NCBI RefSeq assembly: GCF_023238205.1
Contig: NZ_CP096660.1
Location: 124,001-188,000 of the forward strand
DNA length: 64,000 nucleotides
DNA from: Halorussus limi
GTDB taxonomy: Archaea > Halobacteriota > Halobacteria > Halobacteriales > Haladaptataceae
Direction of reading: 5' to 3'
Part shown: positions 6,014-25,760 of the stretch, piece by piece
How positions within the stretch are numbered: the stretch's first letter is position 1
How the letters are laid out: every line of letters begins with the position of its first letter
Notes under the pieces: model-generated
The model's database searches: none
What the model was told of the DNA's origin: nothing
The model's input: the letters and a program-made list of their open reading frames with translations, nothing else
Position numbers and translations under genes: made by a program

Positions 6014-7582
6014 CTACCGCACCCCCGGAATCCGCTTCATCGCGTGTAGCGCCAGCGTCATCCCCTTCGCGTACCACCCGTCGGGCACTCCGCGCGGCGC
6101 GCCGACCGGCGGGCCGCGCTGCTCGGCGACGGTCTGGGCCTCGGTGTACTTCAGGAACCCCTCGTCGCCGTGGCGGCGGCCCATTCCGGAGTCCTTCATG
6201 CCGCCCATCGGCGCGTCCACCGAGGCCCACGCCGCGGCGTAGGCGTCGTTGACGTTGACGGTCCCGCACTCGATTCGGCGAGCGAGCGCCCGACCCCGCT
6301 CGCCGTCCTCGGTCCAGACGCTCGCGTTCAGGCCGTAGTCGGAGTCGTTGGCGAGTTCGACCGCCTCCGCGTCGGCGTCGAACGGACTGACCGCGACCAC
6401 CGGGCCGAACGTCTCCTCGCGTCCGGCGTTCATCTCGTCGGTCACGCCGGTCAGAATCGTCGGTTCGTAGAAGTACGGCCCGAGGTCGGGGCGGGCGCGA
6501 CCGCCCGTCAACACGTCCGCGCCCTTCGATACGGCGTCCTCGACGTGTTCTTCGACGGTTTCGAGTTGGTCCGGGCCGACGAGCGACCCCGCGTCCGGCC
6601 CGTAGTCGTAGGCCCCGCGGAGGTCGAGCGCGCGGGTCCGCCGGACGAACCGGTCCAGAAACTCGTCGTAGACTTCGCGCTGGACGTAGAGGCGCTCGAA
6701 CGAGATGCAGAGTTGGCCCGCGTTGGTGAAACAGCCACCTATCGCGCCCTCGACCGCGCGTTCGGGGTCGGCGTCCTCCAACACGACCATCGGGTTCTTG
6801 CCGCCGAGTTCGAGCGAGCAGTCGGTCAGGTTCGCGCCCGCCCGCTCGGCCACCGTCCGGCCGGTCTCCGTGCTTCCGGTGAAACAGACGTAGTCGGCCC
6901 GCTCGACGACCGCACCGCCCGCCTCGCTCCCGGTGCCGGTCACGACCTGAAACGCGTCGTCGGGGACCCCGGCCTCCCGGAGCAGGTCGCGGAGTAGCAG
7001 CGCCGAGAACGGCGTCTCGCTCGCGGGCTTGAGTACGACGGCGTTGCCCGCCAGTAGCGCCGGAAGTGCGTCCGAAATCGCGAGAGTGAGGGGGTAGTTC
7101 CACGGCGAGACGATGCCAACGACCCTGACCGGCTTCCGGTGGACGGTCGCCCGCGTGAGCAGCGGGAACGCACCCTTCCGGCGGTCGGCGTCTAGATAGC
7201 CCTCGGCCCGGTGGGCGTAGTGGCGCGCGGTCGTCGCCACGTCCAGCACCTCCTCGAAGCCGTCGATTCGGGCCTTCCCGCTCTCGAGTTGGACGACGTC
7301 GAGGAGTTCGGCCCGGCGGTCCAACACGAGGTCGTGAAATCGCAGGACGATTTCGGCGCGGTCCGGGACCGGTCGGTCGGCCCACGACCGCTGTGCCTCG
7401 CGGGCGCGCTCGACCGCGGCCCGCACGTCCGCATCCGTTCCCGCGGGAATCGTTCCGATAGTCTCGCCCGAGTACGGCGCTTCGACCCGAATCTCGGGAC
7501 GGTCCCCGTCGGTGGGGACCGAAGCCGCGAGTCGGGAGAATCGGGCCGAGTCGGCGCGCTTCGGAGTCGAGAAAGTAGTCAT
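6014..7582 (-). CDS. NAD(P)-dependent aldehyde dehydrogenase
   Basis: A 522-residue aldehyde dehydrogenase of the succinate-semialdehyde dehydrogenase-like group. The substrate-binding VSPWNYPLTL, nucleotide-binding FTGSTETGR, the general-base Glu in LELGGKN (E258) and the nucleophilic Cys in GQLCIS (C292) are all intact. It oxidises aldehydes to acids in the cytosol; substrate unknown. It is the upstream gene of a two-gene operon with the SDR reductase, separated by zero bases. The first 20-25 residues form a non-conserved leader. Confidence 0.92.
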   Translation of the reverse strand: MTTFSTPKRADSARFSRLAASVPTDGDRPEIRVEAPYSGETIGTIPAGTDADVRAAVERAREAQRSWADRPVPDRAEIVLRFHDLVLDRRAELLDVVQLESGKARIDGFEEVLDVATTARHYAHRAEGYLDADRRKGAFPLLTRATVHRKPVRVVGIVSPWNYPLTLAISDALPALLAGNAVVLKPASETPFSALLLRDLLREAGVPDDAFQVVTGTGSEAGGAVVERADYVCFTGSTETGRTVAERAGANLTDCSLELGGKNPMVVLEDADPERAVEGAIGGCFTNAGQLCISFERLYVQREVYDEFLDRFVRRTRALDLRGAYDYGPDAGSLVGPDQLETVEEHVEDAVSKGADVLTGGRARPDLGPYFYEPTILTGVTDEMNAGREETFGPVVAVSPFDADAEAVELANDSDYGLNASVWTEDGERGRALARRIECGTVNVNDAYAAAWASVDAPMGGMKDSGMGRRHGDEGFLKYTEAQTVAEQRGPPVGAPRGVPDGWYAKGMTLALHAMKRIPGVR

Positions 7583-7676
7583 AGCTACCTATTTCACCGT
7601 CAGATTCATTAGGATTCTGCCGCGCCCGAGTTCCGGGCCGTACGGGCTCGTACGAGGACGGTGGTCGCGAGTCGCG

Positions 7677-8181
7677 TCACCCGCCGAGGTACAACCGACC
7701 GACCTCCTCGTCTTCCAAGAGTTCGGTCCCGCTCGCCGCCCGAGAGCATCCCGGCCTTCTGGTCGCGGCGCTCGTCGAATCGGGCAAACTCGCCGTAGAG
7801 TTCCTCGGTCCACCGGGCCGCCCGGTTGTCGTCGGCGAAGACGTACCCGCCCATCAGCAGGTTCTCGTGGACCGTCATGTCCGGGAAGACGCTGGACGAC
7901 TGGAGGACGTAACTCACGCCAGACCGGAGGCTTTCCTGCGGACTACGGTGGGTCACGTCCTCGCCGTCGAACGAGATGCGGCCCTCGAACACGTCGGCGA
8001 AGCCGCAGATGGACTTCATCACCGTACTCTTGCCCGACCCGTTCGACCCGACTAGGCAGGCGATTTCGCCCTCGGGGACCGCGAGGTCCACGTCGTGGAC
8101 GACCGTCGTGTTACCGTACCCCGCAGTCACGTCCGAGAGTTCGAGGAGCACGGCGGTCGCCTCAGAGTGGGTCTCGGCCAT
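7677..8181 (-). pseudogene. livF: livF-like ABC ATPase with internal deletion
   Basis: The start is an ordinary LivF-type ATPase of a branched-chain amino acid ABC transporter: MAETHSEAT, ELSDVTAGYGN, Walker A VGSNGSGKST, SYVLQSSSVFPDMTVHENLLMGG (Q-loop region) and the signature LSGGER. Right after the signature, at about 7728, the frame breaks. In the next frame the normal LivF tail TELLEDEEVGRLYLGG and a stop follow directly. About 65 codons holding Walker B, the D-loop and the H-loop are missing, so the protein cannot hydrolyse ATP. The unshifted frame continues to 7609 with nonsense sequence. Confidence 0.85.
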
Positions 8182-8182
8182 C

Positions 8183-8318
8183 TTACTCCCTCCCCAGAAA
8201 GGCATCGATGATGTGGTAGTTCGACCGAATCTCGTTGGTCGTCCCCGCGGCTATTCCTTCGCAGTGTGCGAGGACGTACAACCGGTCGGACACATCCAGC
8301 ACCAGGTCCAAGTTCCGA
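8183..8318 (-). pseudogene. livG: 3' fragment of livG
   Basis: The last ~45 codons of a LivG-type ABC ATPase remain, reading LDLVLDVSDRLYVLAHCEG and ending DAFLGRE then TAA, 1 base before the livF ATG, the usual liv operon spacing. LivG-like sequence stops abruptly near 8318; upstream of it the DNA is lower in GC and unrelated. This marks a deletion or insertion end point and is the left boundary I use for the mobile element. Confidence 0.75.
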
Positions 8319-8786
8319 AGTGATTCACTGCTTGAATATATCAGAACCATCACGACCCAAGATCAGGAGAGAACCATATTATGACTATTATCTTTTATAC
8401 GGTGTTGAGTGGGGGTTGTGAAGGAAGGGGGGAGGCTAAACTAAACCAACTTCAGGAATATCAGCTTGGTCGATGGTTGCGGAAATCGATACCCGGAACT
8501 AGCGTCAAAACCACCAATGTAGTTGTGAATCTAACTAATGTGGTTCCGATACACTTCCTTCGGGGGATTTCGTACAGACTACTGCGCAGTTTTAGCTTGC
8601 CATCAGCATCGTCATCGCTTCTGGCATCCAGTATTTCGAGAGTCTTAACCAACAATCACCCCTACTTCAGCCCGTATATTGGTTAACTCCGCTACCCTCG
8701 ATACTTACTGAAGATGAGTTCTCTAGTTCCGGCCTCGTCAGTCGACCTGCGAATGTGACACTACTCGGCGAGCAGAAGCCCATCAG
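8319..8786. other. element left end; no confident gene
   Basis: It begins with the palindrome AGTGATTCACT (8319-8329) right at the livG break point, followed by low-GC sequence. A 64-codon reverse frame (8461-8655) and a 101-codon forward frame (8381-8686) overlap; neither has recognisable domains, and I call neither. The region contains one of the four TTAACCA/TGGTTAA inverted repeats. Confidence 0.4.
8645..8686. repeat. 42-bp inverted repeat TTAACCA-N28-TGGTTAA, copy 1
   Basis: Left arm TTAACCAACAATC (8645-8657), right arm ATATTGGTTAA ending at 8686. The same arms with the same overall size recur at 13148-13190, 23165-23206 and 25677-25719, all within the putative element. Confidence 0.6.
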
Positions 8787-9242
8787 TCAGAGTCGTCCGA
8801 CGTCCGCGGGGACGAGTGTGAATCCGAGTGTCCGAAAGTCACTATCGAACGCGAAGATGTGGTTGATGTCGCGGCTTCCGGCGAGGACACTACTGGTGTG
8901 GTCGACGAACGAAATCTGGTGGTCGTCGTACTGGGCAAACTCATCGCAGGCCGCATTGAATGCGGGTTTGTCCACGGGAAGGATGTTGAAGCTCTTGGAC
9001 GCTCGGATGGTCTCAAGCGTCTCTACGGCTTCAGCGTGCCCGACCTTCCGCAGTATCAACGTCGTGAGCTCTGAGAGAACTGACCGACTCGTGTAGAGCG
9101 GACGGTATGGGAGGTCGCCAGCGGCGATCGCATCGCATACGTCTCAACCGCGGTCGTGACGTTTGGCCTGCTCGTAGGCCCACGCGAAGAACGTGCCTGT
9201 ATCGATGAACAACGGGATTGTACCTGTACCATTACGATTCAA
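8787..9242 (-). pseudogene. PIN-domain (VapC-like) toxin, frameshifted
   Basis: Two frames together encode a haloarchaeal PIN-domain protein. The N-terminal part reads LFIDTGTFFAWAYEQAKRHD (first PIN Asp present) and hits a TGA near 9142; the continuation in another frame reads AIAAGDLPYRPLYTSRSVLS, then LRKVGHAEAVETLETIRASK and the C-terminal acidic motif FAFDSDFRTLGF. A small insertion or deletion at about 9140-9145 is enough to explain the break. The start is unclear: a TTG at 9242, overlapping the antitoxin end, fits the frame. Expected function when intact: an RNase toxin. It now appears inactive. Confidence 0.75.
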
Positions 9243-9600
9243 CCGCGCCGTAGAGAATATCATCGATGTCGTCCTCGCCGACGAGTTCGTCCTCATCACC
9301 GGCGTGCGCCTCGGCATCCCAGAACGGGTCGTCTGGATTAATCTCGGCTGTGGTGTCCTCGGTGTCGGTGAGCCACCAGACGACGGCGTTTGCGCCGACG
9401 GTGCGGCGTTCGACTCGGCCTTGTTCGTGGAGCGTGATCAGTTTCTGGCGGGCGGCTTCAGAACTACAGTCGAGAAGTTCACCGAGTTCTTTCGCGGTGG
9501 CGACGGGACTGTCAGTTTGGCGGATGGCTTCGAGGACATCCTCAAGGGAGATTGTCCCGATATATTGGCCGTGGTCGTTCCGTTCGCGGTCCTGGCTCAT
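9232..9600 (-). CDS. winged-helix antitoxin-like protein, partner of broken PIN toxin
   Basis: A 122-residue acidic protein with a winged-helix segment (SLEDVLEAIRQTDSPVATAK, ELLDCSSEAARQKLITLHEQG, then a wing RVERRTVGANAVVWWL) and a long acidic tail ending YGAVES. Proteins of this kind sit upstream of PIN-domain toxins in haloarchaea and act as the antitoxin and likely autorepressor. It ends at the start of the decayed PIN gene, overlapping it slightly. It is intact although its toxin is broken, so it may persist as a neutral relic or serve another toxin. Confidence 0.75.
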   Translation of the reverse strand: MSQDRERNDHGQYIGTISLEDVLEAIRQTDSPVATAKELGELLDCSSEAARQKLITLHEQGRVERRTVGANAVVWWLTDTEDTTAEINPDDPFWDAEAHAGDEDELVGEDDIDDILYGAVES

Positions 9601-9869
9601 GACTACTCGTTCGTTAGCTACCTACCTAAACCTATTGCCACGAGACAAGAGGCCTCATATAGACAATTTTCACGTTGGTAGAGTCTATACAGGTACAGTA
9701 TTTTCCATTACTTTGATAGCGCTAGAAACTAGGATGAGTAATCCTACTGCACGACCTCTTATCGTATAGTACCGGCAATCTCGGAAAAGGTGTCCATCGA
9801 GGCGATTCGACCTGACGATCATTTGTTACACGAAGTCAAGATCACTCATGACGAACTACTCGGCGGGAA
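9601..9869. other. intergenic, no gene seen
   Basis: AT-rich spacer between the end of tctA and the start of the antitoxin gene. It should hold the antitoxin promoter and the tct operon terminator; I see no clear hairpin and no coding frame. Confidence 0.4.
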
Positions 9870-11366
9870 TCACACGGCCTCGGATCGACGTTCGCGCCAT
9901 GTCTGAACGAGCGGGAGGAGCAACGACGCGATCGCTAACAGGAGAATGGCGAGTGTGAGCGGTTTCTCGTAAAAGATACCGAGTGATCCGCCGGACAACT
10001 TCAGCGACCGCCGGAGGTTCACCTCGGCAATTGGCCCGAGAATCAGCCCTAGCACCATGGGCGCTAATGGATAGTTCTCGGCCCGCATAACGTATCCAAG
10101 CACGCCCGCCCCAAACATGACCCAGACATCAAGCATATTTCCTCGTAGGGCGTAGGCTCCCACGAATGACAGCACGAGGATTGACGGCCAAAGGTACTTC
10201 GCCGGGAAGTCAATAATCTTCGCCCAGTAGCGTGCGCCAATCAACCCGATAGCGCCGACGACCAGATACACGACAAAGAAGCCCACAAAGATGGCATACA
10301 CTAGTTCTGGCTCGGTCTGGAACAGTTGAGGCCCAGGACGGATACCGTGAACCATCAACGCACCGATGAGGATGGCCGTGACGGAGTCGCCTGGTATACC
10401 CAACGTCAGGGTCGGGATGAGTGCGCCGCCCGTACTTGCGTTATTCCCCGATTCGGCCGCTGCGATGCCCCGGATGTCGCCGTCGCCGAACGAGGTTGCC
10501 GTGTCGTGCGCCCAACGCTTGGCTTCGTTATACGTGATGAACGAGGCAATATCACCACCGGCACCCGGGATGGAACCAATAAATGTACCGACAATACTTG
10601 AACCGAGCACGATGGTCTTAATCTCGTTGAGGTCGGACATCTCCGGCAGTAGACTCGCGATCTCCTGGGAGGACTCTTGATGGCCGAGACCGCTTCTATA
10701 GCGGTGCAATCCCTCAGCGATACCGAACAACCCAATCATCACTGCGATGAACTGGATACCTGACGTGAGCGGTTGGTATCCGAATGTGAACCGCGGGTAG
10801 GCCAGAATTGGGTCTAACCCTACGGTCGCCAGAAGCATCCCAAGCAGTCCCGAGATGAGCCCCTTAACGAGTGAGTCCCCACTTACACTGGCGATAATCG
10901 TCAATCCAAATACTGCCAGCGCAAAATACTCGGGCGACCCGAACTCAAGTGCGACGGCGGCGATCTGCGGTGAGAGGAGTGTAAGGAACACCACACTAAC
11001 AGCACCACCAACGAATGAGGCGACTGTGGCGATGGTAATCGCCCGGTCAGCTTCCCCGCGCTGGGCCAGCGGGAAGCCATCGAAGACGGTCGCCGCGGCG
11101 CTCGGCGTGCCGGGTGTTCGGATGAGGATCGCAGGAATTGAGCCTGCGTACAGCGCTCCACCGTAGATGCCAAGTAGCAACATCATCCCTTCAACAGCCT
11201 CCATGCCGAACGTGAATGAAACGAGCACGGCGACGGTCATCGTCGCAGTCATTCCCGGGAGCGAACCCATCGTGATGCCGATGAGCACGCCGAGGATGAT
11301 GAGCGACAGCGGGAACGGCTGGAAGACGATGCCGATAGCCTGGATGAGGTTTGTGAGGAGGCTCAC
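9870..11366 (-). CDS. tctA: TctA-type transporter large membrane subunit
   Basis: A 498-residue polytopic membrane protein, the large subunit of a tripartite tricarboxylate transporter, which imports citrate-like dicarboxylates or tricarboxylates using ion gradients. Family motifs are plain: GSLPGMTATM near the N-terminus, LLGIYGGALYAGSIPAILIR TPGTPS, GSIPGAGGDIASFITYNEAKR and a second TLGIPGDSVTAILIGAL. Length is typical (about 500). I start at the GTG at 11364-11366, which overlaps the tctB stop as GTGA; the frame upstream is tctB antisense to nothing and only non-homologous. Third gene of tctC-tctB-tctA. Confidence 0.92.
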   Translation of the reverse strand: MSLLTNLIQAIGIVFQPFPLSLIILGVLIGITMGSLPGMTATMTVAVLVSFTFGMEAVEGMMLLLGIYGGALYAGSIPAILIRTPGTPSAAATVFDGFPLAQRGEADRAITIATVASFVGGAVSVVFLTLLSPQIAAVALEFGSPEYFALAVFGLTIIASVSGDSLVKGLISGLLGMLLATVGLDPILAYPRFTFGYQPLTSGIQFIAVMIGLFGIAEGLHRYRSGLGHQESSQEIASLLPEMSDLNEIKTIVLGSSIVGTFIGSIPGAGGDIASFITYNEAKRWAHDTATSFGDGDIRGIAAAESGNNASTGGALIPTLTLGIPGDSVTAILIGALMVHGIRPGPQLFQTEPELVYAIFVGFFVVYLVVGAIGLIGARYWAKIIDFPAKYLWPSILVLSFVGAYALRGNMLDVWVMFGAGVLGYVMRAENYPLAPMVLGLILGPIAEVNLRRSLKLSGGSLGIFYEKPLTLAILLLAIASLLLPLVQTWRERRSEAV

Positions 11367-11872
11367 AGTAACACCCCGCTCACAATAGGTAATGGCGGTA
11401 ACCACCGAGCAACCGGAAGTATGCTGCCTGCAGGTAGTGGGACGTGAAGGAACTCCACGAACACGTATTGGAGAACTAGCGCGATACCTGCGGCGAGTGG
11501 CGCGACTGTTCGGGCCTCGGTCGCGCCAGAGTACCACATTGTCACGATCAGGAAGGCGAAGGTATCGAGTAGGAATCCCAGTACCGGCAGGAGGAGCGCA
11601 TATCCGACTAGGAGGGCTATCGGCACTACCACTCGTTTGGTCTCCTCGGTCGTGATTCGCTGAGTTCGATCGTCGCCTGTTGTGACGCTCCGTATAAACA
11701 GGAACGCCGCGACCCCTGCGATGCTGGCAGCAATGACTCGCGGGAAGAATGCGGGACCCGGAGTTCCCGTGATACCGCTTGGGAAATTACGGCTCGCAAC
11801 GAACACGCCTGCCGCAAGTAGTATCAACAGGAGGGACGCGACCTTGTCTATATGCCTAATTTGGAAGGCCAT
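11363..11872 (-). CDS. tctB: TctB-type transporter small membrane subunit
   Basis: A 169-residue protein with four hydrophobic segments, first at about residues 11-27 (VASLLLILLAAGVFVAS) and last near 130-148. The sequence FPSGITGTPGPAFFPRVIA is the conserved TctB N-terminal motif. It is the small membrane subunit that pairs with TctA. It lies 31 bp downstream of tctC and overlaps the tctA start by 4 bp, as translationally coupled subunits do. Confidence 0.88.
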   Translation of the reverse strand: MAFQIRHIDKVASLLLILLAAGVFVASRNFPSGITGTPGPAFFPRVIAASIAGVAAFLFIRSVTTGDDRTQRITTEETKRVVVPIALLVGYALLLPVLGFLLDTFAFLIVTMWYSGATEARTVAPLAAGIALVLQYVFVEFLHVPLPAGSILPVARWLPPLPIVSGVLL

Positions 11873-11903
11873 TGGTGTAGGAGTACAAAACAGTCAAATG
11901 AGA

Positions 11904-12911
11904 TTACTGCCCGATGCCGAGCGTTTTGATCAGGTCCCCGAATCGTTTGTACTCAGACTGCATGAACTGGTCGTACTCGTCGGAGCTACGATACACCATT
12001 CCGAACCCGTTGTTTTTCATGAACGTCTTGAATTCCTTAGAGTCGTAGACAGACTTGAACGCCTCGTTGAGAGCGTTGACCCGATTTTCGGGCGTTTTCA
12101 CGGGAACGCCGAGACCACGCCATGCCCCGCTCTTCACATTGAATCCCTGTTCCTGAAGCGTTTTTGTCTCCGGGAAGATGTTGACCCGGTTTTCGCCCAT
12201 GACGCCCAGTATCTTCAACGGTCCGTCCTTCACGAGCGGCGCAACCTCGGCCGCGCTGGTGGTCGTAGCGTCAACTTCACCGCTGGCAACCGCCTTGGCT
12301 GCTGGCGCGCCGCCGTCATAGCCGACGTGCTTGACCTTGTTGGAGATGCCAGCCTCTTGTGCGAACATTGCCGCCGAGAGGTGCCAGATGGCACCAATGC
12401 CAGAGTTGGAGAAGGCAAGCTGTCCAGACTGGTTCTTAACGTGTTTAACGAATCCCTCAACCGTGTCATACGGTGCGTCCTGGTGGACAGTCAGCGACGC
12501 CGGATCGAAGTTGTACTGCATTACTGGCGCAAAGTCGTCCGGGCGGATGTTCGAGATGTTGAGGTGCGAGATTGTGCAAACCTCAACTGTGAGAACGCCC
12601 ACGGTGGTCCCGTCGGGTTTGGCGTTCGCAGCCCGACGAAATCCGGCGCTCCCACTTCCACCCGTGATATTTGTTACAAAGTACGACGCGTCCGTCTGAT
12701 TCTCGGCAAGTGACGCGAGTTTCCGTGCCGTTCGGTCCGTCCCACCGCCAGCGGCCCATGGGACAATAAGCCTGATCTCCCCGCTCGGGAACTCGCTCTG
12801 TTGACCTGCGGCCCCGGTCACTCCGGTGGCCCCCACGGTAGCGCCCACGCCGAGTGCTTTAATAAACTGTCGCCGCTCAACCGTAGAGTCTGTTTTGGTA
12901 CTCCCCCACAT
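11904..12911 (-). CDS. tctC: TctC-type substrate-binding protein, Tat-exported
   Basis: A 335-residue Bug/TctC-family solute receptor. It has a Tat signal (ERRQFIKALGVGATVGATG), then SGEIRLIVPWAAGGGTDRTARKLA, the family's hallmark ligand-binding loop, then NITGGSGSAGFRRAANAKPDG. The ligand is a carboxylate in characterised members. I choose the ATG at 12909-12911 (MWGSTKTD) because the upstream ATG at 12932 lies inside the palindrome. First gene of the operon; the palindrome at 12931-12950 is the likely control region. Confidence 0.9.
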   Translation of the reverse strand: MWGSTKTDSTVERRQFIKALGVGATVGATGVTGAAGQQSEFPSGEIRLIVPWAAGGGTDRTARKLASLAENQTDASYFVTNITGGSGSAGFRRAANAKPDGTTVGVLTVEVCTISHLNISNIRPDDFAPVMQYNFDPASLTVHQDAPYDTVEGFVKHVKNQSGQLAFSNSGIGAIWHLSAAMFAQEAGISNKVKHVGYDGGAPAAKAVASGEVDATTTSAAEVAPLVKDGPLKILGVMGENRVNIFPETKTLQEQGFNVKSGAWRGLGVPVKTPENRVNALNEAFKSVYDSKEFKTFMKNNGFGMVYRSSDEYDQFMQSEYKRFGDLIKTLGIGQ

Positions 12912-12930
12912 ACTCCCGTCGTCCAGTACC

Positions 12931-12950
12931 ATATTTTACGTAAAAAATAT
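12931..12950. promoter_or_regulatory. TTTACGTAAA palindrome upstream of tctC
   Basis: ATATTTTACGTAAAAAATAT contains the perfect 10-bp palindrome TTTACGTAAA (12935-12944), identical to the core of the 24-bp palindrome before tryptophanase. It lies about 20-40 bp before the chosen tctC start. A shared regulator is possible, but the AT-rich core can arise by chance. Confidence 0.35.
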
Positions 12951-13147
12951 TGTGGCTAATGGCCCGAAGATGAAGACAATAGGTTCTACACCGTGTATAT
13001 GAGATTTAACACGCCTAATCGGGTACCCCGATTGGCCAAGTAGAAATGAGACGCATCTGGTGACGATATGTTCGCTGGCACTTACTGATGAATACAGCCC
13101 CTGTGTTCAGCATACCTACCAAGTTCAAAATCTCCAACAGTTCTAAG

Positions 13148-13190
13148 TTAACCAACATCCAAAGCTAAGATGGTCGGATGCGATGGTTAA
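13148..13190. repeat. 43-bp inverted repeat TTAACCA/TGGTTAA, copy 2
   Basis: Left arm TTAACCAACATC (13148-13159), right arm GATGCGATGGTTAA ending at 13190. It overlaps the first possible ATG (13183) of the downstream gene, which suggests operator-like repression of that gene or a start at the second ATG. Confidence 0.55.
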
Positions 13191-13197
13191 GGCAACG

Positions 13198-13506
13198 ATG
13201 GTCGAAGGTATCTCGCTACCGGAGGACCTCGAAGAGTTGCTTGAGAGTCTGACGCCCGAGGAGTTGGATGACGTAGAGCGGGCGGTTGCACGACTCGCCG
13301 AGGAGAAACGTCGGCAACAACGCATCGAGGAAAAAGAGGCAGAGCAAGAACGGATTGAGGCGGAGAATGAGACACCAGCGGGTGTGCCACCGAAGGCAAA
13401 CAGAGTCGTCAAAACAATCAACGAGAACGACGATTATTATTGGCAATGGCGGGAGGGCGATTCTGTCAAGTCAGAATACGATAAGCCAGTTAGCGATACA
13501 GAGTAA
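13198..13506 (+). CDS. small coiled-coil protein of the element
   Basis: A 102-residue highly charged protein: a short helical head (MVEGISLPEDLEELLESL, TPEELDDVERAVARLAEE) and a predicted coiled coil rich in Lys, Arg, Glu and Gln (about residues 35-58), then a tail with DDYYWQWREG. No family recognised. The ATG at 13198 is preferred because 13183 lies in the inverted repeat; the longer start adds five residues. It precedes the mobilization operon in the same direction by about 290 bp. Confidence 0.6.
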   Translation: MVEGISLPEDLEELLESLTPEELDDVERAVARLAEEKRRQQRIEEKEAEQERIEAENETPAGVPPKANRVVKTINENDDYYWQWREGDSVKSEYDKPVSDTE

Positions 13507-13798
13507 CAACCGCTCTTTCTTAGCTTCGACTACATTTTGGCTTTCAGGTCTATACAGCATGAAAACGCCGAGAGATATCGAGTACAGTTGACCTGACAAG
13601 GATTGCTCAGAGCAATTAAGACAGATGGCTTCAATACCAAACTTACGGTGCATATATTCCGAGAATCCCCGACTAAACCGATAAAACGAGTAGTAAATAT
13701 AGATATTCTAGAAGTAGTATTCCCATTATCGTATAGTTCTGTTCCTCACGGAGAGCAGACGCCGGTTAGCGGCGGAATATTCGGTTTGAGTCACTAAG
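13507..13798. other. candidate oriT-containing spacer before the mobilization operon
   Basis: No gene. It holds the hairpin ATTGCTC-A-GAGCAAT (13602-13616) and the 7-bp inverted pair TCAGGTC (13544-13550)/GACCTGA (13590-13596). Origins of transfer commonly lie next to the accessory and relaxase genes and carry such inverted repeats; assigning oriT here is inference. Confidence 0.3.
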
Positions 13799-14524
13799 AT
13801 GGGAGGCCGAGACACGCAGGTGACGGTGTACGTTACTGACGAACGAAAGACGGAACTCGAAGAACGTGCAGACGAGGCGGACACCTCACTCTCTGGCATC
13901 ATCAATAATATGCTCGACCAGCAGCTCCAGCAAGAGGCCCAAGACGCGATTGCGTCTGAAACACGCGCCGAGGAGCGCATCCAAGAGTTGCTGACTGTTG
14001 GAACAGAGGAAATGGTGGAGACCGCACGAGAGATTCGAGAGATGAACGCGAAGTTCGGGGCCTACGCCATTGCGAACTTCGAGTTGATGAAGCACGAGCA
14101 GTCTGACCACGTCCGCAAAGACGCTCTCAAAACCGGTGCGCGTCGCATCCGCCAAGATATCGACACAGGAATCGACGGTCTCGACGGCGAAACAGCATCG
14201 ACAGAGACAGACGCAGAGTCCACGACTCCGACCTCCAAAACCGTGACTGCAACCTCGGCCACATCCGACTCACACGTCGATACGAGCGAGCAGTCTGGTC
14301 ACAGTAACGAACTGGACTCACGCCAAACTGATACTGAGACACCCGTCTCGACCGAGAACGCCGACAGTCCTGAATCGGTTGGAAGTACTGCGAACGATAC
14401 CGAGAACGGTACTGAAACTGAACCGAGTGACGGGAGCGATGGCGCTGACGACTCCAGGGATGACGATAGCGATGGGAGTAACGGGAGTGATCTGTTCGAT
14501 AGGCTTCGGCGAGGACGGAGATGA
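13799..14524 (+). CDS. ribbon-helix-helix mobilization accessory protein (MobC-like)
   Basis: A 241-residue protein with an N-terminal ribbon-helix-helix-like segment: beta strand TQVTVYVTDERKTELEERAD followed by a helix EADTSLSGIINNMLDQQLQQ, then a coiled-coil region to about residue 120. The C-terminal half is a low-complexity acidic Ser/Thr/Asp/Gly tail ending in a basic RLRRGRR. Its stop overlaps the relaxase start (ATGA), so the two are translationally coupled. By position and fold it is likely the DNA-binding accessory protein that prepares oriT for the relaxase, as MobC does in bacteria. Sequence likeness to MobC itself is not claimed. Confidence 0.7.
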   Translation: MGGRDTQVTVYVTDERKTELEERADEADTSLSGIINNMLDQQLQQEAQDAIASETRAEERIQELLTVGTEEMVETAREIREMNAKFGAYAIANFELMKHEQSDHVRKDALKTGARRIRQDIDTGIDGLDGETASTETDAESTTPTSKTVTATSATSDSHVDTSEQSGHSNELDSRQTDTETPVSTENADSPESVGSTANDTENGTETEPSDGSDGADDSRDDDSDGSNGSDLFDRLRRGRR

Positions 14525-15165
14525 GGGTCTTTACGGATACTAACTACCGTGAGCATGGGGCCCGCGACCTCGTCGAGTACCTCGACAAAGAGCAGGGCCT
14601 CGAAAATCGCTTCGGTGAGCAGATGACCGAAGAGGAAGTTACGGCATTCATCGAGAAATCCGAGGAGTACGAGTTTGAGCGCGAAATTATCCTCTCACCC
14701 TCGAACGGGAGCGAGCTCTCGGACGAGCAGTTGAGCCTGCATACCCGACAAGTGATGAGCGAGTTCTGTGAGGGCCGGAACACGGCGACATACTGTTATG
14801 CAATTCATCGCGATACGGACCACCCACACACGCAGGTCGCGGTCACGGGCACGAAACGCGACCTCTGGATGGACGTCGAAGACTGCGAGGACCTCCGTGA
14901 ATGCGCGACCGAACACTTCCACGACCACCACCGCGAGCTCACGAACGAACTCGGCGAGCAATTTGAAACCGAACTTTTGCAGGAAGCCGACTTAGCAATG
15001 GACACCGAGCTACACCCAGACCAAGACCACGATCAAGATTGGAACCAGGACGCCGACCACGCAGATGAACAGCAACAAGGGCAGGCACAAGAACAAGGGC
15101 AAGACCGAGGTCAAGCGCAGAGTCCGGGTGTCGACCGCGAGCGGACGCGAGGGCCTGAGTCGTGA
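14521..15165 (+). CDS. small HUH-type relaxase-like protein
   Basis: A 214-residue protein whose middle reads like a conjugative relaxase: EREIILSPSNG (strand, about 52-63), SDEQLSLHTRQVMSEFCEG (helix) and YAIHRDTDHPHTQVAV, the metal-binding motif with H96, D98, H103 and Gln in the place of the last His (Q105), an HUQ variant. Candidate nucleophilic tyrosines are Y9 and Y20. Relaxases nick oriT and bind the 5' end. The last ~55 residues are Gln/Asp-rich low complexity. It is far shorter than most bacterial relaxases. It overlaps both neighbours by 4 bp, between the accessory protein and the coupling ATPase, which strongly supports the transfer role. Confidence 0.75.
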   Translation: MRVFTDTNYREHGARDLVEYLDKEQGLENRFGEQMTEEEVTAFIEKSEEYEFEREIILSPSNGSELSDEQLSLHTRQVMSEFCEGRNTATYCYAIHRDTDHPHTQVAVTGTKRDLWMDVEDCEDLRECATEHFHDHHRELTNELGEQFETELLQEADLAMDTELHPDQDHDQDWNQDADHADEQQQGQAQEQGQDRGQAQSPGVDRERTRGPES

Positions 15166-16940
15166 CGACACGAACAGGGTCACGCTCAGGGTCAAGCGCT
15201 GGTTCTGGGTCGTCGTCCGGGTCGTCCTCAGGGTCAGGGTCGGGGTCGGAGGCAACCTATGAGCATGATGAAGTTGAGATATTCTTCATCATCGCGCTGG
15301 TGTCAGCCACGGCACTCCTCATCCCATGGATTTACGCGATTTTGGAGCGCGCGAATCTCTCCGGACTAAAATTCGAAGGATTGCACCGGAGTCGTGCTCT
15401 CTGGGTCCTTCCCGTGTTCTATGGGTTCGGCGCCCTCGGGACCGTCCTCCTGTTTCCGGCGCACCTCCAGTTGTTCTGGGCATTCCACATCCTCTTGCTC
15501 GCACAACTCGCCGAACTCGCCATCCACGCAACCGGAAACTTGGTGGGAATGTCACTCCCGCTCGTCGAGCAGTTCACGCTCTGGCGTGTCGGCGGCTTCC
15601 TCCTCCTATTCGTAGGGACGGTGCGTGCTGGTCTGTGGTTTCGGACGTGGGATACTGCTCGGGAGTGCCGCCGCCACATCTCGGATGGAAAGTATGTGCT
15701 GCCGTTCCGCCAGCCCTCGGACTCAAGCGAACACATGAGCCTGAAGCGGTTCGTCCCACTCGAGAAAGACCGCTCACTCCTCGTGCTTGGCGAGACCGGT
15801 GCGGGTAAGACCGAGACGATGAAGCTGTTCGTCCATCAGATGCGCGCGAAACTAGACGAAGCGTTCGTCGTCTTCGACTACAAGGGTGAGTACCGCCAGA
15901 TATTCACAGAGGCACAGGGCGAAGAGAACGTGATTTGCTTGTCTTCACGGGGTGAGACGGTGTCGTGGAACCTGTTCTGTGAGATCAAGTACGAGCGAGA
16001 TATCGAGGAGATCGGGCGAGCGCTCTTCCCCGAGACAGATGAAGGTGAATTCTTCGAGAATGCGGCCCGCCAGTTGTTCGTCGCGGTCGTCACCTACCTC
16101 CATCGGGAGGGCCTAATGAGTAAGACGGTGCCGACGAACGCGGATTTAGTGGCGTTCGTCGAGCAGACTGACAAACAAGAGCTGTATGAACGATTGGCCG
16201 AGTATCCAGATTTGGTTGCCGCGGCGTCAGCAATCGATCCTGATGCCGACCGCCAGGCAGCGGGTGTCTACGCGAATTTCCAGCAGGTGATTGCAGACCT
16301 CTTCCGGGGTGACCTCGCAGATGATGGCGAGTTCTCGATCCGAGAGTACATGGAGGACCCACAAGGCCGGACGTTGGTGTTGGACTTCCCGATTACGGAG
16401 GGTGAGGCGGTACAGCCTGCATTCCGGTTTTTCATCGACTGGGCAGCACGATTCGCGCTCTCAGACGACCGGAACACGTACTTTGTTCTCGACGAATTCG
16501 CACGGCTACCAAAACTCCGGAAGATAGGGGATCTGATTAACGCTGGTCGAAGCCGGAATACACAGCTGTTGTTGGGAGTGCAGTCAGTTGCGCAACTCAA
16601 CGATACGTATGGTAGAGACCGCGCAAGCGCGCTGTTGAGTGGGTTGGTGCAGTCCGTAGTGCTACGGGTTGGCGACAAAGCGAGCGTCGACTACACGCGT
16701 TCCCAGATTGGTCGCGAACACCAGCATCGGTCGGTGCCAGTGCGTGGGCGCTCAGGGCGGTCGGTTGGTCGCCAAGAGCTCACGAGCGAGACGCATCCAA
16801 TTGCAGAAAACAGTTTGCAACGGCTTGGGGATGGGGAAGCTATCGTCATCACCTCGAAGGGCTGGATACGCGGCCAGATTGCGCGCTTCCAAAAGGTTCG
16901 GAGTGCACTCGACCGAGCGATTGACCGCGAGCCAGAATAG
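15162..16940 (+). CDS. VirD4/TraG-type conjugative coupling ATPase
   Basis: A 592-residue membrane-anchored ATPase. Start is a GTG in a GTGA overlap with the relaxase stop. Residues 1-30 are a Ser/Gly repeat; hydrophobic segments at about 39-60, 80-100, 105-125 and 143-160 form the membrane part. Then come Walker A GETGAGKTET (210-219), FDYKGEYRQIF, Walker B YFVLDEFARLPKL (D444, E445) and QLLLGVQSVAQLNDTYG, typical of type IV coupling proteins. It would recruit the relaxase-DNA complex and pump DNA to the transfer channel at the membrane. No VirB4 or channel gene is in the window, so the element may be mobilizable rather than self-transmissible. Confidence 0.88.
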   Translation: MTTRTGSRSGSSAGSGSSSGSSSGSGSGSEATYEHDEVEIFFIIALVSATALLIPWIYAILERANLSGLKFEGLHRSRALWVLPVFYGFGALGTVLLFPAHLQLFWAFHILLLAQLAELAIHATGNLVGMSLPLVEQFTLWRVGGFLLLFVGTVRAGLWFRTWDTARECRRHISDGKYVLPFRQPSDSSEHMSLKRFVPLEKDRSLLVLGETGAGKTETMKLFVHQMRAKLDEAFVVFDYKGEYRQIFTEAQGEENVICLSSRGETVSWNLFCEIKYERDIEEIGRALFPETDEGEFFENAARQLFVAVVTYLHREGLMSKTVPTNADLVAFVEQTDKQELYERLAEYPDLVAAASAIDPDADRQAAGVYANFQQVIADLFRGDLADDGEFSIREYMEDPQGRTLVLDFPITEGEAVQPAFRFFIDWAARFALSDDRNTYFVLDEFARLPKLRKIGDLINAGRSRNTQLLLGVQSVAQLNDTYGRDRASALLSGLVQSVVLRVGDKASVDYTRSQIGREHQHRSVPVRGRSGRSVGRQELTSETHPIAENSLQRLGDGEAIVITSKGWIRGQIARFQKVRSALDRAIDREPE

Positions 16941-17026: not shown

Positions 17027-17356
17027 TCACCGAATATACGTCTCTACGGTCTCAACGACAGTATCGACGAATTCCTCCGTGACTCGGCCTTGCCACGTGA
17101 TCAGGTCCTCGGTACGAGGTGAGTGGATAGCCCACGGGGAAACGAACGACTCCTGTGGGACACCACCAGTCTCCCAAACGTCAGACTGTAACGAAATCGA
17201 ATCGGAGTACTTCTTCGTCGAAATAGCGACAGCCACATATTGCTCTTCACCGAATGGATGCGATTTATTGTTGACGATCAGCCACGGTCGTTGGCTGTCT
17301 TCGCCCAACTTGAACGGGTCCGAACTCCGGACGACATCCCCTCGTTCCGGTTGCAT
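17027..17356 (-). CDS. MazF/PemK-like toxin
   Basis: A 109-residue protein with the MazF/PemK beta-barrel pattern: RGDVVRSSDPFKLGEDSQRP near the N-terminus (the GDVV and WLIV strands), YVAVAISTKK, QSDVWETGGVPQESFVSPW and a final helix VDTVVETVETYI. Bacterial members are sequence-specific RNases that cut mRNA. It starts directly after the stop of the upstream winged-helix gene, with no gap, so the two form a toxin-antitoxin operon that could stabilise the element. Confidence 0.75.
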   Translation of the reverse strand: MQPERGDVVRSSDPFKLGEDSQRPWLIVNNKSHPFGEEQYVAVAISTKKYSDSISLQSDVWETGGVPQESFVSPWAIHSPRTEDLITWQGRVTEEFVDTVVETVETYIR

Positions 17357-17719
17357 CTATTCGTCTCGCTCGCTGGGATGGGTTTCGTCCGGAGTGGCTG
17401 TGTCCCACTCTTCGGGATCGATTCCTCCATCACCCTCATCAAGCCGTTCAGTAATCGAATGAAGGGTATAGGCGTCCGCTACCCGGTCGAGATCGTTCGT
17501 TATCGCCCAGTACTCTCCCTTATGCCTGACAAGATTGCGTTGTTTCAGCCGTGAGAGGGCTGTTCCGACTGTATTCGGATCTTCGTCGGTGCCAGTAGCG
17601 ATTTCCGAGCGAGTGAACGCCTTATCCCGGTTCGCGTACAGATACGTGAGTATCTGTTCTGGCACGCTCGGACCGCTTGGGAGTTCCCCGCTCTCAAACT
17701 CCTCGATGCGAACAGGCAT
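17357..17719 (-). CDS. winged-helix antitoxin, partner of MazF-like toxin
   Basis: About 120 residues. A winged-helix domain occupies the middle: PEQILTYLYANRDKAFTRSE, IATGTDEDPNTVGTALSRLK and wing LVRHKGEYWAITNDLDR; the acidic tail (IDPEEWDTATPDETHPSERDE) could wrap the toxin. The start at 17719 (MPVRIEEFES) is preferred over 17749. The use of a MarR/winged-helix rather than an AbrB-type antitoxin with a MazF toxin is a haloarchaeal arrangement. It likely represses its own promoter. Confidence 0.7.
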   Translation of the reverse strand: MPVRIEEFESGELPSGPSVPEQILTYLYANRDKAFTRSEIATGTDEDPNTVGTALSRLKQRNLVRHKGEYWAITNDLDRVADAYTLHSITERLDEGDGGIDPEEWDTATPDETHPSERDE

Positions 17720-17893
17720 ATGCTGTACTTGACGTGCCAACGTAATCAATGTACGGGTGTACTCTTAGTGACGCAAGTTGAGGAAGAAGATCCAGGGATA
17801 CGACGCCAAAGACGACGATAACGCATGGCGTACACCCATATCAGTATGGTTGCATCTGAATGGGCATGAAGAATCACGTATAGGAGATGAATC

Positions 17894-20099: not shown

Positions 20100-21122
20100 C
20101 TACCCCAGTCTTACTCCGTCGCGCTCATGTTTGAGCACGACCGCGGGCGCTGCTCGGCCGTACCGGGCTTCGTAGGCATCATGCAATTCACGGGAGTACC
20201 GCGCAACCACACCCTTGGAGGTCGGACACACCCTGCTCGCCGCTTCTGCCACCTCCGCTTGAGTCACAGTCTTTCCATCGGTCAACCGATCTGCCGCGTA
20301 CACAGCCGCCCCAGCCACAGCCACTCGCGACGTGCCTGGTCCGACTGGCTCAACGTCCGCCAGCTCAAGCAGATGTCGTCCAACTCGTGCGAACTCCAAG
20401 ACCGTCTCCACGTCCAGTCCATCGAACTCGGCCAACACGTCGTCCAACGCCTCGCCCTGCACCGGCGCATACTCATTCACCACCTCACACTCGATCCGTA
20501 TCTTCCGCGCGGCCGCGCACGCTCGCTCATGCGTCGACTTCGCGTACTCCGCAACCACCTCCGTCTCCCGAGGGAACCCTGCCCGTCGCGCCGCCAACAA
20601 CACTGCGCCCGCCGCCAGCGACTCCCAGGCCATCCGCCCGCCCGGCAATCGCCGCTCAGCCGCCTGCTTAACTAGTATCCCAGCATCCGCACACACGTAC
20701 GTTGGGAGTCCGACGTTCTCACCGACGCTTTGGACGTCCCGAAGCGCCTCATTCAATCGCCGGTCGCGCGCCTCCATCCGCTTGTCCAACCGCCGAAGCC
20801 GCCCAAGCCGCCGCTTTTTCTCCGCCGAAAGTGGCCGACCACGTCCATCTGTCCCGAGATTGAACTGTGACCCGAGTCCCTGCCCAACCCGGAACACCGT
20901 CGTCGGCTCAACCGCCCATTCGACGGGACCGCCACGCCGCCGCGGCCCGTGCGCACTCGGCGACACACCCTGATCGATGTCGTCCGTCCGAACTACCAAT
21001 CCACAGTCGTCACACACCGTCTCGATACCGCCCGCAACGAGTTGGCCCTTACATTCCGGGCACTCACTCATGTCTACCGCACTATACGAACCTTCATTAC
21101 CGAAGCTGTCGCTAGTACTCAT
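20100..21122 (-). CDS. divergent transcription initiation factor IIB (TFB)
   Basis: A 340-residue TFB homologue. A zinc ribbon CPECKGQLVAGGIETVCDDCG (C21, C24, C37, C40) is followed by a B-finger-like region with RRRGGPVEWA, then two cyclin repeats (about 125-215 and 230-325) with LAAGAVLLAARRAGFPRE and VAVAGAAVYAADRLTDGKTV. TFB recruits RNA polymerase to TATA/BRE promoters. It is Arg-rich and clearly diverged from housekeeping TFBs, an element-borne orphan that could redirect transcription to element promoters. It is transcribed alone, opposite to its neighbours. Confidence 0.9.
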   Translation of the reverse strand: MSTSDSFGNEGSYSAVDMSECPECKGQLVAGGIETVCDDCGLVVRTDDIDQGVSPSAHGPRRRGGPVEWAVEPTTVFRVGQGLGSQFNLGTDGRGRPLSAEKKRRLGRLRRLDKRMEARDRRLNEALRDVQSVGENVGLPTYVCADAGILVKQAAERRLPGGRMAWESLAAGAVLLAARRAGFPRETEVVAEYAKSTHERACAAARKIRIECEVVNEYAPVQGEALDDVLAEFDGLDVETVLEFARVGRHLLELADVEPVGPGTSRVAVAGAAVYAADRLTDGKTVTQAEVAEAASRVCPTSKGVVARYSRELHDAYEARYGRAAPAVVLKHERDGVRLG

Positions 21123-21727: not shown

Positions 21728-22534
21728 GTGGCTGGCAGGTCTTCGTGCGGGCACCTGCGGTTTGTCGTCGGGACGTGGGCGGTCAGCCTAATGTTCTATT
21801 TCGTACTGCCACGGTATCTGTTTCGAGCCCAATGGCTGTTCGCGGACATAACCGGAATCGACCTGTTTGGAACACGGAGTACACAGACACCAGCAGTTCG
21901 CGCTCTAGACAGGGATTCACCGGAGCCGTATACGACCGCAGACTTGGTGAAGATGGAAGATCGTGAGACGACAACGGCACACGAGCACGCTCAAAGAATG
22001 CTCGAATCGTGTGTCGTCGCCCCGACGGTAGAGGAGGCCGTGTTTCGCGGGCTTCCGTTACTTATCGCTACGATGCTCACAGGACATGTTGTGGCGGTCC
22101 TCCTCGTTGCAAATGCAGTATGGGCGTACCTGCACGTCGTGTACGGGCGAGCAACTCACATGGTGCCACATTTTCTCGGCGGGCTTTTGTCGGTGTATCT
22201 CTGGTTGCACGGACTGGGCATCCTTGCGGTCATCGTCCACGCGATGCACAATCTTGCTGTGTTAGTATTCCTCCTTGGAACGGACATGAAACAGCGTCGC
22301 AATCAAAAGGTGTTCTCACCGGGCGAGGAATATGAGGTCACAGTCAGTAGAGGTCTCCCCGACGACCGGAAGCTGTCTGAAGCAGAGACGGCGGATGGGC
22401 GTACGCTCAGAGTCGCGGATGTCATCCCTGACGAAGAGTGTCGAGTCCGGGTTGCAGCAAAGCTCGGGTGGACTGGATATGCATATCCGCTTGCACGGTC
22501 GGACGAAGACAAGTGGCAGGAGAGAACTGACTAG
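21728..22534 (+). CDS. CPBP-family intramembrane metalloprotease
   Basis: A 268-residue membrane protein with the CAAX-protease/bacteriocin-processing (CPBP) signature: VEEAVFRGLPLL (Glu-Glu-x3-Arg), NAVWAYLHVVYGRATH with His in the next helix, and IVHAMHNLAVLVFLL. These Glu/His residues bind zinc in the membrane. The C-terminal ~60 residues are a soluble tail. The start is uncertain: the GTG at 21728 is the first in frame, but a more natural beginning MLESVVGEWLAGLRAG lies in another frame at 21704, as if one base were gained or lost near 21755. Substrate unknown; some relatives give bacteriocin immunity. Confidence 0.75.
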   Translation: MAGRSSCGHLRFVVGTWAVSLMFYFVLPRYLFRAQWLFADITGIDLFGTRSTQTPAVRALDRDSPEPYTTADLVKMEDRETTTAHEHAQRMLESCVVAPTVEEAVFRGLPLLIATMLTGHVVAVLLVANAVWAYLHVVYGRATHMVPHFLGGLLSVYLWLHGLGILAVIVHAMHNLAVLVFLLGTDMKQRRNQKVFSPGEEYEVTVSRGLPDDRKLSEAETADGRTLRVADVIPDEECRVRVAAKLGWTGYAYPLARSDEDKWQERTD

Positions 22535-23164: not shown

Positions 23165-23206
23165 TTAACCAACACTCACAAAGAAGTAGGCCAGATTGTT
23201 GGTTAA
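23165..23206. repeat. 42-bp inverted repeat TTAACCA/TGGTTAA, copy 3
   Basis: TTAACCAACACTC (23165-23177) and GATTGTTGGTTAA (23194-23206), the cleanest copy. It lies at the outer edge of the replication-origin region. Confidence 0.6.
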
Positions 23207-23812: not shown

Positions 23813-25069
23813 CTATCGCCAGTTGTCGAACCGACTATCAGATACGAGGACCTCTTTCACGATATCTGTCTCTTCGAGCAACCGATGTTCCTTGTACATT
23901 CCCTTTCCTCGACCACGACTCGTCCGCTCTGCTTGAATCACGTTCAAGAAGTCTTGTTCTTCGAGGAGCTCCCCAACACGGCGCTCTGAGAGACAGTCCA
24001 TATCGATTTGGCCCGTGATTTGCTCGTACGCGTTGTAGATGCTCCGAGTTGAGTGACCGTCCGAATCGGTTTTCTCCGTAAGTAGTGTGAGCGCAAGCAG
24101 AATCGCTTTCCCCTGTGGCGGCGTCCCACGTATCAACTCGTTAAACCGGTCCATCTCAGCCCGCTCTTTTCCTGCATAGACGTGTTCTTCCGTTACCTTC
24201 TCCTTGTCCTGCTCTCGGGCGACCTTCCCAGCATTCCGGAATGTGGACATGGCTTTGCGAGCGTCCCCATGTTCCTTTGCACAGAGGGCCGCACAAAGCG
24301 GAATCACGTCTTCGCTCAGAACCTCATCTTTGAATGCATCCTTTCGTTTTCGGAGTATTTCACGAAGCTGGTTCGCGTCGTAGGGTTTGAACACGATATC
24401 CTCGTACTGGAAGCTGCTCTTGACGCGCTCACTTAATGTGTCGGAATAGTCTATCTTGTTGCTGACCCCGATGACGCCGATGGAGGTGTTGGTGACGTTG
24501 TTGTCCTCACCAGCACGTGAGAGGTTCCGCAGAATTTCATCGGATTTCAGCTTGTCAATCTCGTCCAGAATGAAGAACACCACGTCACACTGTTGCTCTA
24601 CGACTTCCCAGAGTCGGTCATAGTAGTCACCAGTTCCAAGACCCTTTTCCGGCACCGAAACTCCCGTTATTTCTTCGTCGTTGAATTTCCGGGCGAGTGT
24701 CTTGACAGCCTCTGCTTCGGTACTCCGAGTTCCACAGTCGATTCGAATCGTCTCAACATCAATGTTCTCGCGGGCGGCCTCGGTTGAGAGTCGTTGCGTG
24801 ATGTGGCGAGCAATGAGTGACTTCCCGGTTCCGGTCTTGCCATAGATTATGAGGTGTGTCGGTGGGCTGTTGAAGAGGACCGGATTGATGGCGCTCGCCA
24901 TGCGGCTGATATGCTCGTCTCGACCGACGATTCGCTCGGTGCTTTCTGGGACGTGGTCCACGTCGAGGAGTTTCTCGCGTTGAAATATTTTGTCCTCGTA
25001 GATGAACACAGGATCCCGTTCGCTCTCGTCTGGTGGGGCCGATTGATTGGATGTCGTCTCGTCGTCCAT
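23813..25069 (-). CDS. Orc1/Cdc6 replication initiator
   Basis: A 418-residue AAA+ initiator. Walker A GKTGTGKSL at about residues 77-85, Walker B VVFFILDEIDKL, sensor-1 region IGVIGVSNKIDYSD, sensor-2 GDARKAMSTFRNAG and a C-terminal winged helix (STRSIYNAYEQITGQIDMDC onward, with SERRVGELLEEQDFL). It binds origin repeats and loads the helicase. Start at ATG 25067-25069 (MDDETTSN); the frame extends to 25108. Flanked on both sides by the ACACTTGCGA repeats, so it is an autonomous replicon's initiator now in a chromosomal context, or part of a composite replicon. Confidence 0.93.
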   Translation of the reverse strand: MDDETTSNQSAPPDESERDPVFIYEDKIFQREKLLDVDHVPESTERIVGRDEHISRMASAINPVLFNSPPTHLIIYGKTGTGKSLIARHITQRLSTEAARENIDVETIRIDCGTRSTEAEAVKTLARKFNDEEITGVSVPEKGLGTGDYYDRLWEVVEQQCDVVFFILDEIDKLKSDEILRNLSRAGEDNNVTNTSIGVIGVSNKIDYSDTLSERVKSSFQYEDIVFKPYDANQLREILRKRKDAFKDEVLSEDVIPLCAALCAKEHGDARKAMSTFRNAGKVAREQDKEKVTEEHVYAGKERAEMDRFNELIRGTPPQGKAILLALTLLTEKTDSDGHSTRSIYNAYEQITGQIDMDCLSERRVGELLEEQDFLNVIQAERTSRGRGKGMYKEHRLLEETDIVKEVLVSDSRFDNWR

Positions 25070-25113
25070 GCTTGTACACTCTAGTATGGCGCCAATAAAA
25101 CTAACCAACTACA

Positions 25114-25418: not shown

Positions 25419-25760
25419 CGACCACAATATGTGGAGGAAGTCCTTGAAGTTCTGGAACCCGAGGCCACGTCAAGAATAGACGGGCTTTCACAGAAAACGG
25501 CAGAAGCATACTGATACGAAGAGGGCTTCGAGTCCTCCACGATTAGCGCAGCACTCAACACGTTGCAAAATCGCGGGTACATTTACGAAGTAAGCGGCCG
25601 AATACGGCTTACTGACATCGACTCATTGGCGTGTCTTGGTCAGAAAAGGTATATTAGTGCAAAGACGAACATGCTATTAACCAACATTATGCCGCTAAGG
25701 CTGACCGATTGTTGGTTAAGAATATTGGGCAGGAGCCAATTCGTTTCACGAGGGATATAG
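25419..25760 (+). pseudogene. remnant of a HTH protein
   Basis: The frame reads PQYVEEVLEVLEPEATSRID, GLSQKTAEAY, then a TGA, then YEEGFESSTISAALNTLQNR and GYIYEVSGRIRLTDIDSLA, the shape of a winged-helix domain. There is no start codon at the expected place and one internal stop. Its 3' part is overrun by inverted-repeat copy 4. Confidence 0.4.
25677..25719. repeat. 43-bp inverted repeat TTAACCA/TGGTTAA, copy 4
   Basis: TTAACCAACATTA (25677-25689) and GATTGTTGGTTAA (25707-25719); the right arm is identical to that of copy 3. Confidence 0.6.

Follow-up and report, generated by a model that had tools for sequence, protein, structure and literature searches.

The window analysed here, a stretch of 64,000 nucleotides from Halorussus limi (assembly GCF_023238205.1, contig NZ_CP096660.1, positions 124,001–188,000 of the forward strand), carries a compact operon for a ribbon-helix-helix (RHH)-type protein, a MOBP-like relaxase and a VirD4/TrwB-type coupling ATPase. 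Judging from homology, predicted fold and gene context, we think it likely that this operon serves a mobilisable plasmid-like element as its module for DNA processing and coupling, and that the transfer channel is borrowed in trans. All three open reading frames (ORFs) are intact, lie on the + strand and overlap by 4 bp at both junctions (ATGA and GTGA), a tight geometry that suits co-transcription; their span, 13799–16940, is exactly that given in a preliminary description of this DNA. The relaxase and its coupling protein are each present as a single copy in the 4.62-Mb genome. The operon contains the following features:

13799..14524, + strand: gene for an RHH-type protein, a putative relaxosome accessory factor, 241 aa (weak NikA-like match, position, model)
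14521..15165, + strand: gene for a MOBP-like relaxase, 214 aa (PF03432, fold match, hhalign with the RP4 TraI group)
14578..14580, + strand: codon of Y20, the candidate nicking tyrosine (invariant; pairs with Y22 of RP4 TraI)
14806..14835, + strand: codons of motif III, H96-R-D98-TDHP-H103-T-Q105, HUQ rather than HUH (pairs with H109, D111, H116 and H118 of RP4 TraI)
15162..16940, + strand: gene for a VirD4/TrwB-type coupling ATPase, 592 aa (PF10412, PF02534, PF12696; TrwB structures by sequence)

The relaxase and its partner proteins

The middle protein passes the cut-off of the Pfam Relaxase family PF03432 (27.9 bits against 24.6), and 18 of 19 family members match this profile at E ≤0.01. 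It consists of a core of about residues 1–130 followed by a disordered tail rich in D, E and Q. In its AlphaFold2 model, block means of pLDDT are 86–96 over residues 11–130, except for 75 at residues 61–70. The best structural matches of the model were all relaxases or HUH proteins. MobA of R1162 ranked first (Z 11.4, rmsd 3.1 over 135 residues), followed by F TraI (Z 9.4), TrwC (9.3), pCU1 TraI (9.3) and MobM (9.2); the PDB entries matched include 2ns6 (Z 11.4), 9f10 (9.4), 1omh (9.3) and 5n2q (9.2). A geminivirus Rep also matched (Z 8.6), and unrelated folds reached at most 7.9. A sequence search of solved structures gave no relevant match for this protein. The relaxase fold suggested in the preliminary description is borne out both by the comparison with MobA and MobM and by the PF03432 search.

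By hhalign, the relaxase profile aligned with RP4 TraI (from pRK2013), NikB and their relatives at E 5.5e-9, pairing Y20 with Y22, S59 with S74, H96 with H109, D98 with D111, H103 with H116 and Q105 with H118 of RP4 TraI. Y20 would supply the single catalytic-type tyrosine of MOBP motif I, and S59, which is Ser in 32 of 33 sequences, corresponds to the serine of motif II. The three histidines of motif III are present in most family members, and in the window the third is Gln. Among relaxase models, NCBIfam MobP1 was matched most often (17/19 family members, best E 2.7e-7); the window relaxase scores 14.8 bits against its cut-off of 200. Because the third His is absent and the score lies far under this cut-off, we call the window protein MOBP-like rather than MOBP.

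The invariant columns of a 19-sequence alignment include L17, Y20, P60, R76, Y93, H96 and H103. In a second alignment, which holds two Halalkalicoccus sequences, Y20, S59 and H96 are invariant but H103 is not. The expectation that homologues would share H96, H103 and a tyrosine near the N-terminus was therefore upheld for H96 and Y20, but not fully for H103. The two Halalkalicoccus homologues (L054:3096–3617 and L055:9947–10465) retain Y20, H96 and the final His, but H103 is absent from them (GKDVHIAM). Y9 was rejected as a candidate nucleophile because its column varies between Y, F and H and Y20 is invariant in both family alignments. The length of 214 residues had been considered unusually small; relatives are ~170–260 aa with a ~130-aa core, so it is normal for the family.

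The third protein had been described as a VirD4/TraG coupling ATPase, and this identification was confirmed: it matches PF10412 TrwB_AAD_bind with 156 bits (cut-off 20.5), PF02534 T4SS-DNA_transf with 66 (20.1) and PF12696 TraG-D_C with 59.5, and its match by sequence among solved structures is TrwB (E 6e-19). Hydropathy places membrane segments at ~36–62 and ~79–114, and a Walker A motif (GETGAGKT) lies at 210 and a Walker B motif (FVLDE) at 441. The protein thus combines the ATPase domain, both Walker motifs and the N-terminal membrane segments expected of VirD4/TrwB proteins.

The first protein consists of an N-terminal RHH-like segment, a long helix and a disordered acidic tail. Its model has an extended N-terminus followed by helices at 14–26 and 31–97, with pLDDT ~90 over residues 11–80. 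Its score against the NikA-like family PF21983, 18.8 bits, is under the cut-off of 27. The earlier assignment to the RHH proteins agrees with the model and with the position of the gene but not with the profile threshold, and we therefore claim only an RHH-type protein.

In the mechanism that we propose, the RHH protein and the relaxase would assemble on an origin of transfer (oriT). Y20 would nick one strand there with the aid of a metal coordinated by H96, H103 and Q105, and would remain covalently attached. The coupling ATPase would then dock the relaxase–DNA complex on a channel of VirB4, VirB6 and pilin that a co-resident conjugative plasmid supplies.

Distribution of the family and the HUQ variant

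Relatives of the relaxase occur in 33–34 of 391 Halobacteria genomes (~1 in 12) and in 11–12 of 86 genera. We found none outside Halobacteria in a phylum-wide sample, and none in viral contigs and phage records at the sensitivities used. For the degenerate scans a narrower alignment replaced A1, whose sequences were too diverse. RefSeq already labels some homologues 'relaxase'.

The three-gene order is conserved among relatives. Of 25 loci with flanks, several share a plasmid or a genus, so that not all are independent; the gene immediately before the relaxase encodes an RHH homologue in 25/25 cases, and a coupling protein follows immediately in 24/25, the exception being L040. At L005:1495–3435 the relaxase and a VirD4-type coupling protein form a single ORF of 646 aa, in which the HUQ position is Gln; G073, the genome that holds this fusion, gave no match to VirB4. 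In Haloarcula (loci L035, which is pNG500, and L046–L053) the trio closes a full type IV secretion system (T4SS) operon that runs from pilin to VirB4: pilin, ~690-aa and ~277-aa proteins, a ~553-aa protein and a 1088-aa VirB4 precede it. In the clade of the window, a linked VirB4 was seen only in the divergent L055, where it precedes the relaxase, and there is no VirB4 on either the closed 16.7-kb plasmid NZ_CP100460 or the 54-kb CP050019. Two of the plasmids have features of their own. The circular NZ_CP100460 (L033) carries, besides the relaxase and coupling protein operon, genes annotated as terminase large subunit and phage minor head protein, and it is possibly a phage-plasmid that is also mobilisable. 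The 21.5-kb record NZ_CP085343 of Haladaptatus halobius (L036) looks like a tandem duplication of ~10.7 kb with the operon twice, which appears to be an assembly artefact or a dimer.

The preliminary description had singled out the motif H96-x-D98…H103-x-Q105, which is indeed present, and had called it unusual. Gln105 is real and found in 6 of 33 sequences, but it is the trait of a subclade plus L005 in a family that is otherwise HUH (His in 27/33). Its carriers are the window, L031, L037–L039 and the distant fusion L005. L031 and L037–L039 come from Haloarcula, Halobellus, Haloferax and Haloarchaeobius, and their relaxases are ~71–73% identical to that of the window. L040, which falls between Gln105 sequences in the tree, has His, so that Gln105 may have arisen twice, or a single time with a reversal. 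Among the closely related HUQ members, dN/dS of the relaxase core is mostly 0.01–0.05; between the window and other HUQ members, synonymous sites are near saturation and core dN is 0.11–0.12. This strong purifying selection on the core in the subclade indicates that HUQ is a maintained variant, and it disfavours Q105 as simple decay. The HUQ clade also retains Y20, S59, H96 and H103. MOBP-HEN relaxases provide a precedent for altered motif III ligands (PMC12857230), and Q105 may itself serve as a metal ligand. The subclade offers a natural test of how far relaxases tolerate changes of their metal ligands.

Proposed transfer channel, probable plasmid backbone and alternative explanations

As the preliminary description had it, no VirB4 gene is visible beside the operon; there is none on the whole contig of the window. 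The VirB4 matches of the genome lie only on contigs C4 and C5, each with a T4SS operon in which no PF03432 relaxase was found. The C5 operon (L064:3720–17146) encodes a pilin (PF18895), proteins of 585, 298 and 400 aa, a 1092-aa VirB4 with 45% identity to that of pNG500 and a 1063-aa TraG-like protein; its VirB6-size protein resembles the ~553-aa protein of the Haloarcula operons. The C4 operon (L065:4199–17613) encodes TrbL/VirB6 (PF19590, 455 bits), VirB4 and a long TraG-like ORF. In both cases the operon is followed by its TraG-like ORF, which is longer than 1000 aa, and by an NrS-1-type primase-polymerase HBD protein. With a relaxase of its own and no mating channel of its own, the element has the gene content expected of a mobilisable element, and the C4 and C5 systems are possible helpers in the same genome. 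The idea that it is mobilised by another apparatus agrees with this gene content, and the two systems are candidates for that apparatus. The same division is seen elsewhere. In strain JP-L23, CP050019 has no VirB4, and CP050016 and CP050017 carry VirB4 and a relaxase; in Halomarina BND7 and Haladaptatus halobius, VirB4 lies on plasmids other than the small relaxase plasmids. VirB4 is present in 32/33 relaxase genomes versus 216/358 others (Fisher 5e-6), with 17 of the 33 belonging to one genus and so not independent.

The operon sits in an island of mostly 48–60% GC (~8–57 kb) with flanks of 65–75% GC. Downstream lie three backbone genes:

20100..21122, − strand: plasmid-type TFB gene (PF00382; 45% identity to the TFB beside the CP050019 relaxase operon)
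21728..22534, + strand: CPBP membrane protease gene (PF02517; 40% identity to the CP050019 gene, order kept)
23813..25108, − strand: Orc1/Cdc6 replication initiator gene (Cdc6_lid and Cdc6_C; 32% identity to the CP050019 AAA gene)

Because the order TFB–CPBP–Orc1/Cdc6 matches that on plasmid CP050019, we read ~13–26 kb as a probable integrated or captured plasmid backbone. Directly left of the operon, still in the low-GC island, is a complete tripartite tricarboxylate transporter (TctA, TctB, TctC; 9870–12932, − strand). To the right, a MazF/PemK-like gene with a sub-threshold match (17027–17749, − strand) adjoins a winged-helix gene. This pair also occurs near the relaxase operon of L037, with 45% identity for each protein, and given this recurrence the two genes may form a new type of plasmid stability pair.

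A separate repeated element was also noted. The dyad TTAACCAACA-N20..23-TGTTGGTTAA (41–43 bp) occurs at 8645–8686, 23165–23206 and 25677–25719, and with one mismatch at 13148–13190; no copy would be expected by chance. The genome has 19 copies, none of them on contig C1. The dyad is present in 271/391 Halobacteria genomes with 1–33 copies each, and the reversed pattern in at most one genome among those listed. It flanks the relaxase operon in L031, L037 and L038. No paper on the TTAACCAAC dyad was found, and it could be a centromere, a replication site or an operator of haloarchaeal plasmids.

Several observations weigh against a functional mobilisable element. The island of the module has no recognised integrase among the genes examined and no att repeats: no word of ≥14 nt is shared between 7000–13800 and 17000–60000, and there are no direct repeats of ≥25 nt in 7–34 kb. 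An oriT had been proposed in 13507–13798, and this segment is not conserved with relatives; when 12933–13798 was compared with the upstream regions of six relatives on both strands, scores stayed within those of shuffles, and 13400–13850 contains weak repeats only. The VirB4 gene on C4 is split between two overlapping frames, the C4 and C5 systems have TraG-like proteins of their own, and an expected metal-ligand His is replaced by Gln at 105.

Some of these points would suit a relict, that is, a once mobile plasmid module now stranded in a genomic island, with Q105 as early decay of its active site; the lack of a linked VirB4 and the single copy in the genome agree with this. Such a history is unlikely in view of the three intact, overlapping ORFs, the sharing of Q105 with four further lineages, whose copies lie on plasmids or on contigs that resemble them, the strong purifying selection on the core, and a core dN of ~0.11 between the window and its relatives at near-saturated synonymous sites, although the window copy itself could have stalled recently. 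It is also improbable that the HUQ protein is a non-catalytic DNA-binding adaptor for the coupling ATPase, with transfer of double-stranded DNA or another nuclease as in the crenarchaeal HerA–NurA model. In favour of this reading, archaeal systems that lack a relaxase are known (PMC9905601, PMC12857230), and the metal triad has lost one His here and the other in two Halalkalicoccus relatives; however, the HUQ clade retains Y20, S59, H96 and H103, and an altered motif III is also found in MOBP-HEN relaxases (PMC12857230).

We consider it very unlikely that the HUH protein, rather than being a conjugative relaxase, initiates rolling-circle replication or acts as a transposase. The HUH fold is common to Rep proteins, as the geminivirus match illustrates, and 1 of 19 members weakly matches a Rep family, but relaxases outrank Reps structurally and the motifs match those of RP4 TraI. 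Moreover, the coupling ATPase is conserved next door and fused in L005, relaxases are embedded in T4SS operons, and an Orc1-type initiator lies nearby. We also doubt that DNA passes without any VirB4 channel, via cell bridges or membrane fusion, with the coupling ATPase as sole pump. Haloarchaea do exchange DNA via cell bridges, and VirB4 and TraG genes are present on elements that bear fusexin (PMC9259645); the clade of the window has no linked VirB4, and G073, with the fused form, has no VirB4 match. Against this stand the excess of VirB4 in relaxase genomes, half of which are one genus and not independent, and the Haloarcula operons, which join VirB4 and relaxase directly. A module for mobilisation through a channel encoded elsewhere is the reading we retain.

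Significance and comparison with known systems

It has been reported that archaeal genomes and conjugative plasmids have no apparent relaxase homologues (PMC9905601), and a 2025 review describes the studied archaeal conjugative plasmids as being without an identified relaxase (PMC12857230). A 2011 survey listed one archaeal conjugative plasmid (pNG500) and one integrative and conjugative element, and suspected that there are unknown archaeal relaxases (PMC3158045). We found archaeal relaxases in the literature only as isolated survey hits; preprints and most subscription papers were outside this search, and an earlier description is possible. The components, the 'relaxase' labels on some homologues and the listing of pNG500 as conjugative are known already. 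What this analysis adds is how widespread the haloarchaeal family is and how its loci are built, the HUQ subclade, and the division into channel-bearing operons and mobilisation-only versions.

With somewhat less assurance than for the reading of the operon itself, we consider probable a two-tier system of haloarchaeal conjugation, comparable to the bacterial one, in which plasmids with a relaxase and a T4SS coexist with hitch-hikers that carry only the RHH protein, relaxase and coupling protein, some with a Gln metal ligand. If so, relaxase-driven transfer of single-stranded DNA exists in archaea. With a relaxase family that goes together with a coupling protein, and in many cases with a full T4SS, the archaeal relaxase question becomes directly testable. 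In PLSDB, MOB-suite types 20/23 relaxase-bearing and 177/178 VirB4-bearing records as non-mobilizable; because most relaxase plasmids are called so, haloarchaeal gene flow may be underestimated.

The closest relative of the window is CP050019.1 (Haloarcula sp. JP-L23, unnamed5). Its HUQ relaxase is 72.8% identical over 173 residues, and it has the same RHH–relaxase–coupling protein operon, the TFB–CPBP–AAA backbone order and no VirB4. It differs in being a free circular plasmid of 54 kb, on which an integrase-like gene lies close to the operon, whereas the window copy lies in an island on a 414-kb contig. In pNG500 of Haloarcula marismortui (RR_RS01150–RR_RS01190), an RHH-size protein, a relaxase with 37% core identity and a coupling protein occur in the same order, but there the relaxase has the HUH form, and VirB4 belongs to the same operon, a complete T4SS operon in which the trio comes last. 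The window differs in its HUQ motif and in having no channel genes linked to the trio.

Among bacterial MOBP relaxases, RP4/RK2 TraI and R64-type NikB share motif I LVxY, the Ser of motif II and the motif III spacing H-x-D-T-D-x-x-H-x-H/Q with the window protein, but they are HUH proteins of 733–900 aa with C-terminal regions. Overlap of the RHH gene with the relaxase gene is also seen in the IncQ2-type cassette. In the MOBP-HEN group (ColE1 MbeA), motif III is likewise altered in an otherwise MOBP relaxase (PMC12857230), to HEN there and to H-H-Q in the window. The archaeal plasmids of the pNOB8 group and Thermococcus pT33-3 have VirB4- and VirD4-like ATPases, but no relaxase has been recognised on them (PMC12857230). 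Bacterial integrative and mobilizable elements offer a functional parallel: they carry their own relaxase and borrow the mating channel of a helper (PMC5704250). The window element differs from them in being archaeal, in having no identified integration or excision genes, and in bringing its own coupling protein.

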